From Acidimicrobiales bacterium (lineage in GTDB: Bacteria > Actinomycetota > Acidimicrobiia > Acidimicrobiales > MedAcidi-G1): 39,212 nt of DNA. The stretch lies in the NCBI GenBank assembly GCA_014240365.1, contig JAAZXC010000010.1, forward strand, positions 1 through 39,212. Direction: 5' to 3'. The notes below the pieces were generated by a model. It ran no database searches. It was not told the DNA's origin and saw only the letters and a program-made list of their open reading frames with translations. A program made the position numbers and the translations under genes. Shown one piece after another: positions 5,961 to 30,037 of the stretch. How positions within the stretch are numbered: position 1 is the stretch's first letter; every line of letters starts with the position of its first letter.

Positions 5961-6140
5961 CCCCCCTCTGTCCGAAACCTGAGAGATTGACCGGACCGAA
6001 GTCCGGCTTGCCCCGTCGGTGGACCGGTATTCCGGTCACTCTCCAGAGTCGCCTATGCCTGTAGTCCTTTTGCCTGAGAGTTTCCGGGGGCGGTTGCTCC
6101 TTCGGCGGCCCGGACGGATCCGGACGCTCTTCCACAGGTT
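5961..6140 (-). promoter_or_regulatory. Tandem glycine riboswitch upstream of gcvP
   Basis: Read on the minus strand, aptamer 1 spans about 6138-6058 and aptamer 2 about 6048-5966. Aptamer 1 has P1 strands CCUGU (6138-6134) and ACAGG (6062-6058), with the conserved core CCGCCGAAGGAGCAACCG and AAACUCUCAGGCAAAAGGAC. Aptamer 2 opens with the family hallmark CUCUGGAGAG, has CACCGACGGGGCAAG and AAUCUCUCAGGUUUCGGAC, and is closed by CUCUG (6048-6044) with CAGAG (5970-5966). Tandem glycine aptamers usually activate glycine-cleavage genes when glycine is abundant. The 3' strand of the second P1 runs into the G-rich AGAGGGGGG before ATG 5946, and no terminator with a U-run follows, so control of translation is more likely than attenuation. 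Confidence 0.93.
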
Positions 6141-6250
6141 GTATGCGGCTGTCGTCACCGTACTCCCGAGTGTGTGGTTGTTTCCATGACCCTCGTCACA
6201 CAGGCCCATGGCCTCCGGCGGCGGACCGAGCTCGGCAACGGGCCGGGGAT

Positions 6251-23909: not shown

Positions 23910-25427
23910 GTGGAGGAGGCCCGTCGGAATCGCTGGATCACCGTGGTGGTCGTCGTGTCGGTTATCGGTGGCATCGTTCTGCGGTTCCTACCGGCGTCGC
24001 CCATGTGGCTGGATGAAGCGATATCGGCATCCCTGGCCGGGGAGGCCGACAGGGGTTGGTCGCATCTTGCCGAGGCCCTCCGCCACGACGGCCACCCGCC
24101 GCTCTACTACGTGCTGCTTGCCCTCTGGACCAACGTGGTTGGCGAAGGCGATGCTGCGGTCAGGTCGTTCTCAGGTGCCCTGGGCGTCGCATCCCTGCCA
24201 CTCGTGTGGCTCGTGGCACGGCGCCATCTGGATCGGACAGGAGCGCTGCTGGTCCTAGGGGTGATGGCCTCCAGCCCGTTCGCAATCCGCTACTCCACCG
24301 AGGCACGGATGTACCTGCTGATCCTCGTGCTCCTTCTGCTCGGCCACCTGGCAATCGTGAGAGCCTGGGATTCACCTTCGGTGGGGCGCCTCGCAGGGCT
24401 CTCAGCGGTGGTCGCCGCCCTGCTTCTCACGCACTACTGGTCGTTCTTCCTCGTGGCGGTCGTAGGGGTCGGGCTTCTCGAGAGTGGTCGCCGTGGGGCC
24501 CGGGACCGTGCGTTCAAGATGGCAGGGGCCGTTGCCGCAGGATGCGTTGCCTTCATTCCGTGGTTGCCGGTCTTCCTGGACCAGTTGATGCACACGGGCA
24601 CGCCGTGGTCGCCGGCACCTCGACCCACGGTCGTGGTCGCCCTCACCCTGGAGGCGTACGGCGGCGGCCGGGGCTCGGAGGCCCTCCTGGTAGCTGTGGT
24701 GCTCTGCGTGCTGGTGGTCCTCGGTCTCGGAACCCGGGATGCCTCGGGTGGGGCGGTGATCGGCTGGACCGACCGGGGTTGGCTACGGGTGGCGGCAGGC
24801 ATCGGCGTGATGACGATGCTTCTGGGAGCAGCGGTGAGCCTTGCGACCGACACCGCGTTCCAGGGCAGGTATGGGGTGTTCGCCCTCGTGCCGGTGGTGC
24901 TCGCCGCTGGTATGGGCCTGTGGCGGATTCCCGGCGGAGGAGTCGTTGTGGCCCTTTCACTCCTCGTCCTCCTCTCCGGCATCTCGGTAGCCCGTGAGCT
25001 GAGCCGGGACCGGACTCAGGTGGGCGTGGTGGCCGAGGCGATACTGGAGGACGGCGCCGGCGAGGACCTGGTGGTCTTCTGCCCGGACCAGTTGGCCCCG
25101 GCCGGATACCGGCTTCTCTCCGAACACCTCACGACCCTCGCGTATCCGATGCTTGACGACGGTCGACGCGTCGACTGGTCCGACTACGCCGAACGCAACG
25201 GAGCCGTCGACGTAGCAGAGGTTGCCGACGCCATTGCGGAGCGCTCCGATACCGGTTCTGTGGTCTGGCTGGTCTGGATGGACGGCTACGAGACCTTCGA
25301 CGCACAGTGCGGGAAGCTCCGCCTGGAGCTGGCGGAGCGTCTGGGCCACCCGACCAAGGTGGTGCGCGCCGATGGCGACGCCTTTGACGATGCGGCCAAC
25401 CTTTCCCGCTTTCCGGTAGCGCCATGA
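23910..25427 (+). CDS. Membrane glycosyltransferase, GT39/PMT-like
   Basis: A protein of about 505 residues with many hydrophobic helices. SPMWLDEAISASLA after helix 1 carries the Asp-Glu pair typical of the catalytic site in this class, and HDGHPPLYYVLLALW and PFAIRYSTEARMYLL are hallmarks of Arn-T/mannosyltransferase-like GT-C proteins. A soluble C-terminal tail of about 140 residues follows the last helix. GTG 23910 begins the protein-like part; the frame stays open further upstream but the residues there do not look coding. The stop overlaps the next gene's start as ATGA, so the two are coupled. It probably adds a sugar to an exported glycan. Confidence 0.86.
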   Translation: MEEARRNRWITVVVVVSVIGGIVLRFLPASPMWLDEAISASLAGEADRGWSHLAEALRHDGHPPLYYVLLALWTNVVGEGDAAVRSFSGALGVASLPLVWLVARRHLDRTGALLVLGVMASSPFAIRYSTEARMYLLILVLLLLGHLAIVRAWDSPSVGRLAGLSAVVAALLLTHYWSFFLVAVVGVGLLESGRRGARDRAFKMAGAVAAGCVAFIPWLPVFLDQLMHTGTPWSPAPRPTVVVALTLEAYGGGRGSEALLVAVVLCVLVVLGLGTRDASGGAVIGWTDRGWLRVAAGIGVMTMLLGAAVSLATDTAFQGRYGVFALVPVVLAAGMGLWRIPGGGVVVALSLLVLLSGISVARELSRDRTQVGVVAEAILEDGAGEDLVVFCPDQLAPAGYRLLSEHLTTLAYPMLDDGRRVDWSDYAERNGAVDVAEVADAIAERSDTGSVVWLVWMDGYETFDAQCGKLRLELAERLGHPTKVVRADGDAFDDAANLSRFPVAP

Positions 25428-26521
25428 CCGGGGGCCGGCTGGGCCTGGTTCGTACCGAGCTCCTGGTCGTGCTGCCCGCCTGGATCACGGCGCGCCTCCT
25501 TGTAGCGGCCGCGTGGGTGGCCGTTCGACTAGCGGGGTCCGGCAGCGGGCCCCGGCCGGTCGACCGTGGCCTCCTGGCGTGGGATGGCGACTGGTACCAG
25601 TCGCTCGTGGTGCATGGCTACGACGGGGTTGCGGCCGAAGGGGTGCGGTTCTTTCCGGGATTCGTTCTGGTCGGCCGCCTCGCCGATGCGGTTCTTCCGG
25701 GCGGGCCCGGCGTGGCGCTCGTGGTCCTGGCGAACCTCTCGGCATTTATGGCAACCATGCTCCTGTACCGGCTGGTGCTCCTAGAGACGGGAAGGCGGAT
25801 CATGGCTCGCCGGGCTGTCTGGGCGCTCTCGCTGTTCCCGCCGGCATTCGTCCTGGTGTGGGCCTATGGGGAGGGCCTGTTCCTCGCCCTGGCGATCGGC
25901 GTCCTGCTGTGTGCCCGTCGTGAGAGGTGGCTGGCGGTTGCCCTGCTGGCGTTGGCCGCTGGGCTGGTGCGTCCGACGGGTGCCCTCCTTGCTGTACCTG
26001 TTCTGGGGGCTGTCTGGCGTCCCACGGAGTCATCCGGTCGACTCCCTGAGCGGATCGCCGCTGTGGCAGGCGGCCCTGTCGGCGTTGGCATTTTCGTCTG
26101 GTGGTCCTCGGCGCACTTCGGCGAGGCGTTCATGCCACTGAACGTGCAACGCAGCCTCAGAGGCGACCCGGTGAACCCAGTGCGCCGGCTGGTGGACGGC
26201 ATCGGGGAGGTATTCGGGGGCGAGGCCATGGGCGATGGCCTCCACATCGTCGCAGTCGCAGCGCTCCTCGTCCTCCTGGTGGTGCTGGTCAGGAACTGGC
26301 CTCTGCGTTATAGCGCCTTTGCCGCATCGTGCCTCGTGGTCGCCCTTGCTGCCGACAACCTCAACAGCCTCGAGCGCTATGCCCTGAACGGGGTGCCGTT
26401 CGTGTTGGCGGTTGCCACCCTGGCCTCAAGGCGTCGCCTGGGCCCCCTGGTGATGGCCGTATCGGCGACGACGATGCCGATACTGGCTGCCATGGCCTGG
26501 TGGGGCTCCTACGTACCATGA
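25424..26521 (+). CDS. Mannosyltransferase-like membrane protein, PIG-V type
   Basis: A 365-residue multi-span membrane protein. WDGDWYQSLVVHGYD followed by RFFPGFVLVGRL matches the luminal catalytic loop of PIG-V-like mannosyltransferases, and ALSLFPPAFVLVWAYGEGLFLAL is the next conserved block. Like its upstream neighbour, to which it is coupled by ATGA, it would use a polyprenyl-phosphate-mannose-type donor outside the membrane. It is the last gene of the surface-glycan region; a 784-base stretch without genes follows. Confidence 0.88.
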   Translation: MTGGRLGLVRTELLVVLPAWITARLLVAAAWVAVRLAGSGSGPRPVDRGLLAWDGDWYQSLVVHGYDGVAAEGVRFFPGFVLVGRLADAVLPGGPGVALVVLANLSAFMATMLLYRLVLLETGRRIMARRAVWALSLFPPAFVLVWAYGEGLFLALAIGVLLCARRERWLAVALLALAAGLVRPTGALLAVPVLGAVWRPTESSGRLPERIAAVAGGPVGVGIFVWWSSAHFGEAFMPLNVQRSLRGDPVNPVRRLVDGIGEVFGGEAMGDGLHIVAVAALLVLLVVLVRNWPLRYSAFAASCLVVALAADNLNSLERYALNGVPFVLAVATLASRRRLGPLVMAVSATTMPILAAMAWWGSYVP

Positions 26522-27305
26522 GCTGGGCGCCGACATCTGGCGCCGCGGCCACCCAGCCGAGGGCCGGGTGGGCCCCGGGACGCGAAAATGGCCCCGAGTA
26601 GCCTCCCGGCGAACCGGTCAACTCCTCGGAGCCACTTCGTCGTTCCACTTCCACCCGTCGGATCGTCACGTCAGACGATCCGGGGCCCGACCCCTAAGGG
26701 TCTGACCCTGATCCGAAGGCCGGAGCGTCCGTCAACGCTTCGTCCCCGTACCCAGCTCGACCACCGGTTCCCGAGGGAACCGTGGCCCATCGTGTCTCTC
26801 CGATGCCCGACGGCGCCGGAGTGACCCGATCGACCTGGCACTCCGAGTCCGGTCCCACCGTCGATCCACCCCGTCGCCCGTCGGCGGCGGAGTGACCAGC
26901 GGTGGTCCGGGCCCGGCTGGGGTTCCGTCCGGGTGGTTCGACGGTCCGCCCGGAGGCTTCTCGTCGTCCCGCCCGGCCTCGACACCCATGTGCCGGTAGC
27001 CGAACCGCTGGTCCCTCGCGGGCCCAGCGTGGTTGCGGTCCTCCCCGAACACGCTCTGGAGGCTTCCCCAGGTTCTCGATCCTCCTCGCTTCGCCGGAGC
27101 CAAGGCCCCAGTTCCGTCTGGCTGATCGGTTCTCCGGTTCCGGATCTCCTCGCCGTGTTCGGCGTGGAGGCATGGTGCACGGATGGCGGCCCGGAATCAA
27201 GGGGATAGGAGGTAATCCCCAGATCCCGAGGGGATTTCCCCAGAGTTGCCAGCGGCCTCCACAGGTTCGTCCACAGGAGTGCCTGAAATCAGTCCGTGTC
27301 CAGCC
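26522..27305 (+). ncRNA. 784-base intergenic region with dense hairpins; candidate large structured RNA
   Basis: This gap lies between two convergent genes and has no credible gene: frames on both strands are open only because of high GC and give Arg/Gly/Ser/Thr-rich nonsense. It is crowded with stems. Examples are 26522-26557 (GCTGGG with CCCAGC around GGCGCC/GGCGCC), 26594-26629 (CCGAG/CTCGG enclosing CCGG-CGAA-CCGG), 26659-26682 (perfect 9-base stem, 6-base loop), 26761-26785 (10 pairs with one bulge, CGAG loop), 26929-26953 (8 pairs), 27003-27034 (12 pairs with a bulge and one mismatch), 27146-27169 (9 pairs) and 27201-27220 (6 pairs). Two stems need U-G pairs that form only if the plus strand is transcribed, so + is the preferred strand. 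No match to RNase P RNA, tmRNA or SRP RNA was seen. Neither a promoter nor an end is clear. Confidence 0.4.
27258..27277. repeat. TCCACAGG direct repeat, 12-base period
   Basis: TCCACAGG occurs at 27258-27265 and again at 27270-27277, separated by TTCG. The core TCCACA is that of DnaA boxes (TTGTCCACA), but the first bases do not match, and no dnaA or dnaN gene is near. It lies at the edge of the hairpin-rich region, just downstream of the CopD-like gene. Confidence 0.4.
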
Positions 27306-27704
27306 TCAGGTGACGAGGACGGCGCCGGCGAACAGCGCGCCGAGAGCGGCCAGGCCACCGAGGGCTCCGGTGGCTCCCCGCAGTGCTGGACTCTTCGTGG
27401 CTGAGTGGATCGCAGCTGCTGCACCGGACAGTCCGACCAGGAGGAGCTTCACCAGGAGGGCCCTGAGATAGGTCGTGTCGCGTTCTGCCAGGTCGACGGC
27501 CCACAGGCTCCAGAGTCCGGTGGCGATCGCCAGGCCGAAACAGGGCCACGCCACGCGTGCGAACCGGGCGGCAGCCAGACGGGGGGCATCGGGTCCCAGA
27601 GACCTGAGCAGCGGCAGGAGGCCCACCATGAGTATCTGGCCGCCGATCCACCCGGTCACGCCCAATAGGTGGAGGAAGATGCGGATGCTGTCGACGTCGA
27701 CCAT
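27306..27704 (-). CDS. CopD-like small membrane protein
   Basis: A 132-residue protein with four membrane helices. The start RIFLHLLGVTGWIGGQILMVGLLPLLR, with a helix-1 histidine and a Trp-Ile-Gly-Gly turn, is typical of the CopD-like / copper-resistance D domain, and WPCFGLAIATGLWSLW and LRALLVKLLLVGLSGAAAAIH follow the family layout. These proteins bind heme or copper in some cases, but the function of such short members is not established. ATG 27704 starts a monocistronic gene, 37 bases downstream of the phosphodiesterase gene's stop on the same strand. Confidence 0.72.
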   Translation of the reverse strand: MVDVDSIRIFLHLLGVTGWIGGQILMVGLLPLLRSLGPDAPRLAAARFARVAWPCFGLAIATGLWSLWAVDLAERDTTYLRALLVKLLLVGLSGAAAAIHSATKSPALRGATGALGGLAALGALFAGAVLVT

Positions 27705-27741: not shown

Positions 27742-28509
27742 TCAGGCCACCCAGTCCTCCCGGTCGATGAGGACGGACCTGAGCAGGGTCGGCTGGTCGG
27801 TCATGAGGCCGTCAACCCCGAGGTCCAGGAGCCTGTGCATCTCGGCGGGGTCGTCAATGGTCCAGACGTGTACCTGCATGCCCCTGGCGTGTGCGTGGTC
27901 CACGAACCGACGGTCCACGAGGGGGATGCCTCCCTGTCTCACCGGAACCTGGAGGCAGTGGGCTGCCGGCCGGCCGGTGGGCAGCCCCAGGCTGGACAGG
28001 CGGACCCGAGCCACGGCCAGGGGACCGGCCGAGGTGCAGAGCCCCGGTCCCAGGAGAGTCCGGCAGCGCCGTAGCCGTCGATCGGAGAATGAACCGAGGC
28101 AGACGCGGTCCAGGGCGTCATGTTCCTTCAGGATCTCAACGAGCGGGTCGACCACCCGATCGTCCTTAGGGTCAATGTTGATCCGAACGCCGGGGAATGC
28201 GGTGAACAGGTCGGCCAGCAGCGGTATCGGCTCGGTGCCGCCGATGCGGGCCTCGGCTACCTCGGACCAGGAGAGCTCCGCTATGCGACCGGACCTGTCG
28301 GTGACACGATCCAGGGCCACGTCGTGGAAGGCCAGCACCGTCCCATCGGCGGTGGCGTGGACGTCGGTCTCCAGATACGTGTAGCCGAGGCCGACAGCGT
28401 GGCCAAATGCAGCCAGGCTGTTCTCCGGATGGGCTTCGGTGCCGCCACGATGGGCAAAGGCCAGGGTGCCCGGATGGTCAAGATACGGATGGGGATTCCG
28501 GTCGTGCAT
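27742..28509 (-). CDS. Glycerophosphodiester phosphodiesterase
   Basis: A 255-residue TIM-barrel GDPD enzyme, hydrolysing glycerophosphodiesters to glycerol 3-phosphate and an alcohol. The N-terminal FAHRGGTEAHPENSLAAF supplies the catalytic His-Arg and Glu, YLETDVHATADGTVLAFHD the metal-binding Glu-Asp and second His, and VHVWTIDDPAEMHRLLDLGVDGLMTDQP is the characteristic C-terminus. ATG 28509 was chosen; the frame upstream to 28761 is only the reverse of the pyruvate kinase gene. It lacks a signal peptide, so it acts in the cytoplasm. It is divergent from pyruvate kinase over 91 bases. Confidence 0.92.
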   Translation of the reverse strand: MHDRNPHPYLDHPGTLAFAHRGGTEAHPENSLAAFGHAVGLGYTYLETDVHATADGTVLAFHDVALDRVTDRSGRIAELSWSEVAEARIGGTEPIPLLADLFTAFPGVRINIDPKDDRVVDPLVEILKEHDALDRVCLGSFSDRRLRRCRTLLGPGLCTSAGPLAVARVRLSSLGLPTGRPAAHCLQVPVRQGGIPLVDRRFVDHAHARGMQVHVWTIDDPAEMHRLLDLGVDGLMTDQPTLLRSVLIDREDWVA

Positions 28510-28600
28510 CCAGATGACGGTAGTGCGATGCGCACGTGGGGCCAGCGGTGTCCTCCATGTTGGCCGGGGTGGCCCGATACCTGATCTGTATGGTGGGCTG

Positions 28601-30037
28601 ATGGCACGTCGTACCAAGATCATCGCCACCATCGGGCCCGCTTCAGAGGATGAGGGGACCATACGTGGGTTGATCCGCGCCGGAATGGACGTGGCTCGCC
28701 TCGGTTTGGCCCACAACACGATCGACGAGGCGGCGTCCCGGATGGCCAATATCCGGCGCATAGCGGCTCTGGAAGGTCGCTACGTGGGCATTCTCGTGGA
28801 TCTGCCGGGGCCGAAGGTCCGTGCAGCTCCATTCGGGGCCGAACCGGTGGCACTCGTCGAGGACACCGAGGTGCAGCTTCGTATCGGGAGCACCGGGAGC
28901 AATGTATTCGACATCGAGGTGGACTACGAAGGCCTGCTCACCGACGTGGAGCCCGGAGACCGCCTCAGCATGGGCGACGGACGGGTGATCCTCGAGATTC
29001 TGGACACCATCGGTGATCGTCTCACCGCCCGGGTGGCGCACGGAGGGGTCCTGAACGGCAGCCCGGGCCTGCACATACCCTCTGATCGGCTCTCCATGAC
29101 GGCACCCACAGCGGAGGACCTCATAGCAGTCGAGCGGTTCCTTGAACTTGACGTGGACATGATCGCCCTCTCATTCGTACGGTCCGCCGAGGACCTGGCC
29201 CGATTGCCTGTGCCGCCGCATCCGGAAGGCCCGATCGTGGTCGCCAAGATCGAGACGAGGGCAGCCATTGACGACCTGCCCGCGATCATCGCGGCTTCGG
29301 GGGCCGTCATGGTCGCCCGTGGCGACCTTGGGAGCGAATGCAACATCGAGGAGTTGCCGATCCTCCAGAAGGAGATCATCAGGCAGTGCATCGCCCTGGG
29401 TAGACCGGCGATCACCGCTACCCAGATGCTCGAGACAATGGTGACGAACCCCGAGCCCACCAGGGCTGAGGTGTCCGATGTGGCTAACGCCGTCTGGGAC
29501 GGATCCAGCGCCGTGATGCTCTCGGGGGAGACCGCCATTGGCGTGGATCCGGTGAACGTGGTCCAGACCATGGCCCGCATTGCCGAGCGGGCCGACCGGG
29601 CGTTCGACCATCTTGCCTGGATGTCCGAACTGTCCGATCTGCGAATGACGGATACGGATGATCCGGACACCTCCATCACCGATGCGATGACCCAGGCCAC
29701 AGCGCGTGCCATTCACGAGCTGGGTATCAAGACCATCCTGTGTATCTCAGGTAGTGGTTTCACCATTCGTTCGATGGCCCGGTTCCGCCCGTCGGCACGC
29801 ATCCTCGGCCTGAGCTCCAACGAGAGGACGGTCCGCCAGCTGACGCTCAGCTGGGGGACGGAGCCGATCCACCTGCCGGAACAGGGAGACATCGGGAAGC
29901 GTGTCACCGCCGCCCTCGTGGCAGCGCGTGATCAGGGCGATGTACCCGCCGGTGAGCTGGTCGGCGTCCTGGCCGGAACAGACGTGAAGTCACGCTCCAC
30001 GAACGTCCTGAGGATTGAGCGGGTCCCCGAGGCCTGA
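28601..30037 (+). CDS. pyk: Pyruvate kinase, divergent (altered K+ site)
   Basis: A 478-residue enzyme of normal length, converting phosphoenolpyruvate and ADP to pyruvate and ATP. ATG 28601 has GGTGGG 5 bases upstream. Motifs are KIIATIGPAS (6-15), VDLPGPKVR (66-74), VVAKIETRAAI with the catalytic lysine, MVARGDLGSECNIEELPILQKEII, and ATQMLETMVTNPEPTRAEVSDVANAVWDG followed by MLSGETAIG. Near the N-terminus the usual RLNFSHG is RLGLAHN: Arg33 is kept, but the Asn and Ser that bind monovalent cation are Gly35 and Ala37. The DLGVEI motif is also changed to DLGSEC. It is probably active but with different cation needs; a specialised paralogue is possible. Confidence 0.92.
   Translation: MARRTKIIATIGPASEDEGTIRGLIRAGMDVARLGLAHNTIDEAASRMANIRRIAALEGRYVGILVDLPGPKVRAAPFGAEPVALVEDTEVQLRIGSTGSNVFDIEVDYEGLLTDVEPGDRLSMGDGRVILEILDTIGDRLTARVAHGGVLNGSPGLHIPSDRLSMTAPTAEDLIAVERFLELDVDMIALSFVRSAEDLARLPVPPHPEGPIVVAKIETRAAIDDLPAIIAASGAVMVARGDLGSECNIEELPILQKEIIRQCIALGRPAITATQMLETMVTNPEPTRAEVSDVANAVWDGSSAVMLSGETAIGVDPVNVVQTMARIAERADRAFDHLAWMSELSDLRMTDTDDPDTSITDAMTQATARAIHELGIKTILCISGSGFTIRSMARFRPSARILGLSSNERTVRQLTLSWGTEPIHLPEQGDIGKRVTAALVAARDQGDVPAGELVGVLAGTDVKSRSTNVLRIERVPEA

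Follow-up and report, generated by a model that had tools for sequence, protein, structure and literature searches.

An intergenic spacer of an Acidimicrobiales bacterium, analysed within a stretch of 39,212 nucleotides (the window), very probably holds a minus-strand gene for a structured non-coding RNA of approximately 585 nt; based on comparative sequence analysis, we put the probability that its identity, strand and architecture are correctly assigned at about 0.88. The predicted gene spans 26580–27165 on the minus strand, a conserved block with a consensus structure, and its 5′ end (~27165) and 3′ end (~26580) were placed from the promoter and the terminator. The RNA appears to be a member of a previously undescribed RNA family of the Acidimicrobiia, of a general kind that is already known; its promoter is unusual, and its 3′ module is fixed to an unusual degree. 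Neither Rfam 15 nor the literature searched yielded an account of such an RNA. An earlier note on this DNA had proposed a new large, ornate non-coding RNA in the spacer, a proposal now supported by conservation, covariation, a promoter, a terminator and absence from Rfam.

Large structured bacterial RNAs are few, and several have proved to be central machines. The RNA described here is conserved across much of an abundant and mostly uncultured actinobacterial class, the Acidimicrobiia, for which no reported 6S or Ms1 RNA was found in the literature. The family can be tested for at once in existing marine metatranscriptomes, and its promoter signature is so regular (10.6-bp period) that the activator can be sought directly.

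The locus and its conservation

The spacer lies between a PIG-V-like gene at 25424–26521 on the plus strand and a CopD-domain gene at 27306–27704 on the minus strand (PF05425), beyond which a GDPD gene is found at 27742–28761 on the minus strand. Pfam assigned no family to the PIG-V-like protein, and its name is taken from the earlier note. According to the ORF listing, the length of 784 bases previously given for the convergent spacer is exact (26522–27305). Its abundance of stems is likewise far above chance, with single-sequence folding z-scores of −5.6 (plus strand) and −8.6 (minus strand) relative to shuffled sequences, and GGTTC, noted before as occurring at least six times, is found seven times where a dinucleotide Markov model predicts 1.6 (0.15% of simulations reach seven).

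The region 26580–27243 is conserved, in whole or in part, in 20 of 24 genomes of the same genus or family, with 69–94% identity in blastn; the earlier note had named conservation in relatives as something on which its proposal depended. The PIG-V-like and CopD-like flanks are retained around the RNA in most same-family genomes, and the gene is vertically inherited. Two relatives (L020 and L028) lack approximately 250 bases of internal sequence as whole blocks, and the RNA body is therefore modular. The whole spacer had originally been put forward as the RNA candidate, which holds for ~26580–27275 (the RNA gene and its promoter) and fails for the first 58 bases at 26522–26579, which are unconserved in same-family genomes. 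These 58 bases comprise a G+C-rich inverted repeat straight after the PIG-V-like stop codon, outside the RNA, and partial copies of 27–50 bases occur elsewhere in the same genome and in relatives; it may represent a dispersed terminator or a palindromic repeat.

The conserved stretch does not behave as a coding sequence. Between the studied genome and its nearest relative, each codon phase has received a similar number of substitutions (24/24/25), and most of the indels seen in more distant relatives have lengths not divisible by three, which largely refutes a decayed or unrecognized protein gene and leaves the conserved reading frame, raised earlier as a possible objection, without foundation. 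Minus-strand ORFs of 168–169 amino acids do exist, and a protein gene might be read from them, but at such a G+C content long open frames are present in all six frames and differ between relatives, making this explanation the least credible of those considered.

Strand and secondary structure

Transcription had been thought to proceed from the plus strand, as some stems of the studied sequence carry U-G pairs on that strand (26929–26953 and 27071–27101). Both of these hairpins are absent from the consensus fold, and across relatives the evidence points to the minus strand. The consensus energy is −369 for the minus strand and −299 for the plus strand, compared to −206 ± 6.5 and −182, respectively, in column-shuffled nulls. 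Counted on structures predicted without G-U pairs, the ratio of G-U to A-C cells is 236:112 on the minus strand and 129:223 on the plus strand. Among the hairpin loops read on the minus strand are UUCG, GCAA and numerous Y(GNCG)G loops; a hairpin that runs into a U-rich stretch (U7 in the homolog L035, as in a classic terminator) reads in the same direction, and so does a TTGA(C/T)-N17 promoter upstream of the first domain. As energies, G-U excess, loops, terminator and promoter all indicate the minus strand, the earlier inference fails, and an RNA made from the plus strand is very improbable.

A consensus structure was predicted with RNAalifold from an alignment of 15 genomes (A2), giving 161 pairs at −196 kcal/mol, 46 of them with two-sided compensatory changes. 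In this alignment 96.7% of cells at paired positions can pair, compared to 31–53% for slid partners, and 137 two-sided cells were observed versus 46 after shuffling. The covariation score of 0.247 (0.158 shuffled) was not reached by any of 500 shuffles, and 29 compensatory events could be placed on branches of the tree, versus 0–3 for slid and 1.9 for re-paired partners. The minimum-energy fold of the studied genome alone, a control that cannot have borrowed covariation from relatives, still gave 24 compensatory events versus 2.5 (maximum 7 in 300). The covariation check suggested in the earlier note thus came out positive in the shuffle, slid-partner and branch-level tests and negative per pair: a home-made, R-scape-like G-test on a mixed alignment of 23 sequences yielded no individually significant pair, probably due to a few independent clades dominating the set. 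Even there, structure pairs accounted for five of the top 100, where ~0.1 would be expected.

The fold comprises three domains. D1 (27043–27164, minus strand; helices 1–7) is one long irregular hairpin, in which the 5′ end at 27164–27154 pairs with 27053–27043, some 110–120 nt downstream; its closing helix displays a compensatory change in the short homolog L024, as read by eye. A duplicated hairpin in D1 was seen in one family member (L076). D2 (26642–27041, minus strand; helices 8–25) is a multibranched domain with many local hairpins; the domain is closed by the long-range helices 27041–27029/26654–26642, 27006–26996/26764–26754 and 26994–26990/26841–26837, and large parts of it are missing in L020 and L028.

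D3 (26583–26639, minus strand) is the near-invariant 3′ hairpin CCGAG-R-AGYYGA..loop..RAGGCUA-CUCGG, which serves as both intrinsic terminator and family signature. The covariance model built from it (R1) has 22 pairs, with 97% pairing, and 28 cells with two-sided changes compared to 7.9 after shuffling. Its sequence is conserved beyond what pairing needs (model columns A17, G18, the G-A tandem and GCUAC), suggesting that D3 is a protein-binding site. The hairpin is followed by the U-rich tail AUUUUCGCGU at 26580–26589 (minus strand); that the tract in the studied genome amounts merely to AUUUUCGCGU counts as a weak point of the assignment. On the RNA strand of family members, Y(GNCG)G tetraloops recur, with 83 found among 530 simple hairpins, and these uncommon loops may represent a recurring motif for binding or contact.

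The promoter and its phased boxes

Upstream of D1, a −35 element (TTGATT, 27195–27200, minus strand; pattern match 27196–27242) corresponds to homologous TTGAC elements in relatives and is separated by 17 bp from a −10 element at 27172–27177 (minus strand). The latter, CACCAT, is poor in the studied genome, another weak point of the assignment; relatives have CATGAT, AAGAT or TATTGT. Further upstream of the −35 element lie boxes that read TGTGGA or TGGGGA and then mostly A/T. Four are present on the minus strand here, namely TGGGGATTA (27213–27221), TGGGGAAAT (27234–27242), TGTGGAGGC (27255–27263) and TGTGGACGA (27267–27275), at −21, −42, −63 and −75 from the start of the −35 element, respectively. 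In 51 non-redundant loci 126 such boxes were counted, compared to 3.5 in shuffled sequences, and they are positioned in phase with a period of ~10.6 bp (Rayleigh R 0.90; the maximum of 5000 nulls was 0.31). Within the studied genome, two phased boxes occur together with TTGAY only at the RNA locus.

The boxes resemble DnaA boxes, exemplified by TGTGGATAA near dnaA in relatives, which raises the alternative that conservation here reflects a DNA element such as a replication origin or a site bound by DnaA, the folds being secondary. In two single-contig genomes, dnaA is located 1.0–1.4 Mb from the RNA locus, which is therefore not the origin, and no GC-skew switch is found in the window; these two results rule out a replication origin. 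Moreover, compensatory pairing that tolerates G-U across ~580 nt is an RNA signature, and we regard the DNA-element explanation as highly unlikely.

For the RNA gene, the most credible reading is that a single, independently transcribed and trans-acting structured RNA of ~585 nt would be produced from the minus strand of the spacer. Transcription would start from a sigma70-like promoter and end at the conserved hairpin D3. Upstream of the promoter, two to five TGKGGA boxes share one face of the DNA helix and are probably read by an activator that uses DnaA-like boxes. In the RNA, D3 is predicted to bind a protein, and D1 together with the expandable D2 may constitute the body of a ribonucleoprotein particle. 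A more far-reaching and rather speculative version is that of a class-wide RNA family with a promoter read by DnaA or a factor recognizing DnaA-like boxes that are stacked along one helix face, an output thereby tied to replication or growth state, and a body that resizes several-fold around a fixed 3′ hairpin binding an essential partner.

Distribution and variation of the family

Scanning genome contigs for the exact pattern returned 42 loci, nearly all labelled as marine Acidimicrobiales, MedAcidi or Ca. Microthrix MAGs. With the D3 model R1 at ~40 bits or more, approximately 60–70 of 397 genomes of the order were matched, as well as other orders of the class; the studied locus scores 81.4 bits at 26583–26639 (minus strand), directly before the U-rich tail, as a single high-scoring copy. 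In many of the families represented among these 397 genomes D3 was not matched, reflecting either loss or divergence. On inspection, loci from other orders of the class share the CCCCGAGRAG...CUACUCGGGG hairpin; they have a TTGAC promoter, their bodies are ~200–280 nt long, and phased boxes were not found at them. A phylum-wide search gave only weak matches outside the class; the locus L198, from another class, is a possible member, its hairpin and promoter both being plausible. One locus labelled Gammaproteobacteria (L059, contig PBFS01000001.1) carries the RNA next to a GDPD-like gene in a MedAcidi-type arrangement and is probably a mislabelled MAG.

Across the family, the RNA bodies range from ~150 to 720 nt. 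Short forms of ~200–270 nt consist of the D1 rod, a hairpin and the terminator; in those of family f36, with D1, one hairpin replacing D2, and D3, 83 pairs were found, 14 of them with two-sided change. At the locus L194 (genome G286), the RNA body contains near-identical tandem modules, GCTCGACACCGAGCAC...GGGTCGGG, several hundred bases upstream of D3, which suggests growth of the RNA through tandem duplication. No viral contig was found to carry the signature, and a viral origin was rejected on that basis.

Possible functions and comparison with known RNAs

The RNA gene follows the CopD-domain gene in the same orientation, its first box ~30 nt and its start ~140 nt from the CopD stop codon, and the RNA could on this account be a long structured 3′ UTR or terminator of the CopD mRNA that acts in cis. 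However, a separate promoter lies between the two, and CopD is missing in L035 and L056, where GDPD precedes the RNA. Based on reading of the sequence ends, the upstream neighbor is a GDPD gene in several families and a lytic transglycosylase gene in others, and in some families a divergent gene lies upstream. A role in cis is accordingly improbable, and because the flanks change between families we infer that the RNA acts in trans. The most likely function would be that of an RNA-protein particle with a housekeeping regulatory role, and the RNA is expected to be highly expressed, abundant and stable.

The comparison with Rfam that the earlier note recommended matched no family, giving only chance-level hits in the spacer up to E 10, and the family members tested gave no match at E 0.05 or at the gathering score. 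The sole Rfam hit in the window is a glycine riboswitch aptamer of a known family (RF00504, 63 bits; 6052–6144, minus strand). Hits to F6 and to microRNAs (E 0.3–10) are at chance level. The weak F6 hit (RF01791, a mycobacterial sRNA) falls on D3 and scores 21.5 bits (E 0.46), far short of the cut-off of 46. The AGYYGA/RAGGCUA part conserved inside D3 has no counterpart in the F6 consensus, and any G+C-rich hairpin would probably serve. As stated before, no RNase P RNA, tmRNA or intron is recognizable in the spacer. The studied genome has its RNase P RNA (RF00010) on another contig (233 bits), ruling out that identity, and tmRNA was rejected since both ARAGORN and Rfam were negative at the locus, with no tRNA-like ends or tag frame. 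ARAGORN found no tRNA or tmRNA in the spacer and no tRNA in the whole window. Separate tmRNA genes score above the cut-off in many relatives and none does so in the incomplete assembly of the studied genome (G000), in which dnaA was not found either; relatives have both genes, and their absence here is probably due to assembly gaps.

Among large ornate RNAs, OLE, GOLLD and ROOL had previously been named for comparison. The likeness is one of size and ornateness; homology is not supported, as their covariance models gave no match in the spacer region up to E 10 and none in other members. The new RNA is like OLE in being ~600 nt, ornate and chromosomal, and differs in its taxa and in that no Oap-type gene was recognized next door. 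It shares with GOLLD a fixed 3′ module combined with a variable 5′ part (the 3′ part of GOLLD being conserved or universal, PMC12286853), and its multibranched fold and recurrent GNCG-loop hairpins would suit a scaffold, either self-assembling or bringing proteins to a membrane or particle. In contrast to the phage, prophage and tRNA-island context of GOLLD and ROOL, the new RNA occupies a conserved chromosomal locus with retained flanks, without tRNA arrays, and members of ~150–250 nt could hardly build such cages. Scaffold-type behavior is thus conceivable and rather unlikely.

The leading specific guess, still tentative and itself unlikely to be right, is that the RNA fills the niche of 6S and Ms1, with D1 mimicking a promoter bubble and binding RNA polymerase; this proposal concerns function and is compatible with the preferred explanation of the locus. 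In favor of it are the housekeeping-type promoter, the possible promoter-like rod in D1 and the composition of the short forms. Against it, the 6S model RF00013 matches neither the locus nor other members, and unlike 6S the new RNA is much longer and its 5′ and 3′ ends are not paired with each other: the 5′ end pairs inside D1 and the 3′ end forms a separate hairpin, so that the 6S-type whole-molecule rod with a central bubble is not seen. Ms1 is an RNA of Actinobacteria that binds the RNA polymerase core. It is ~300 nt in length, with a long hairpin containing a bubble, weak sequence conservation and HAD-IB hydrolase/oxidoreductase flanks (PMC4191392, PMC9130861), and the 2022 survey of Ms1 does not mention Acidimicrobiia (PMC9130861). 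The new RNA differs from Ms1 in its length range up to 720 nt, its flanks (PIG-V-like, CopD and GDPD instead), its near-invariant terminator hairpin and its phased upstream boxes. It resembles Ms1 in being a single intergenic gene with its own sigma-A-type promoter and a long irregular hairpin, whose architecture is kept with weak sequence conservation.
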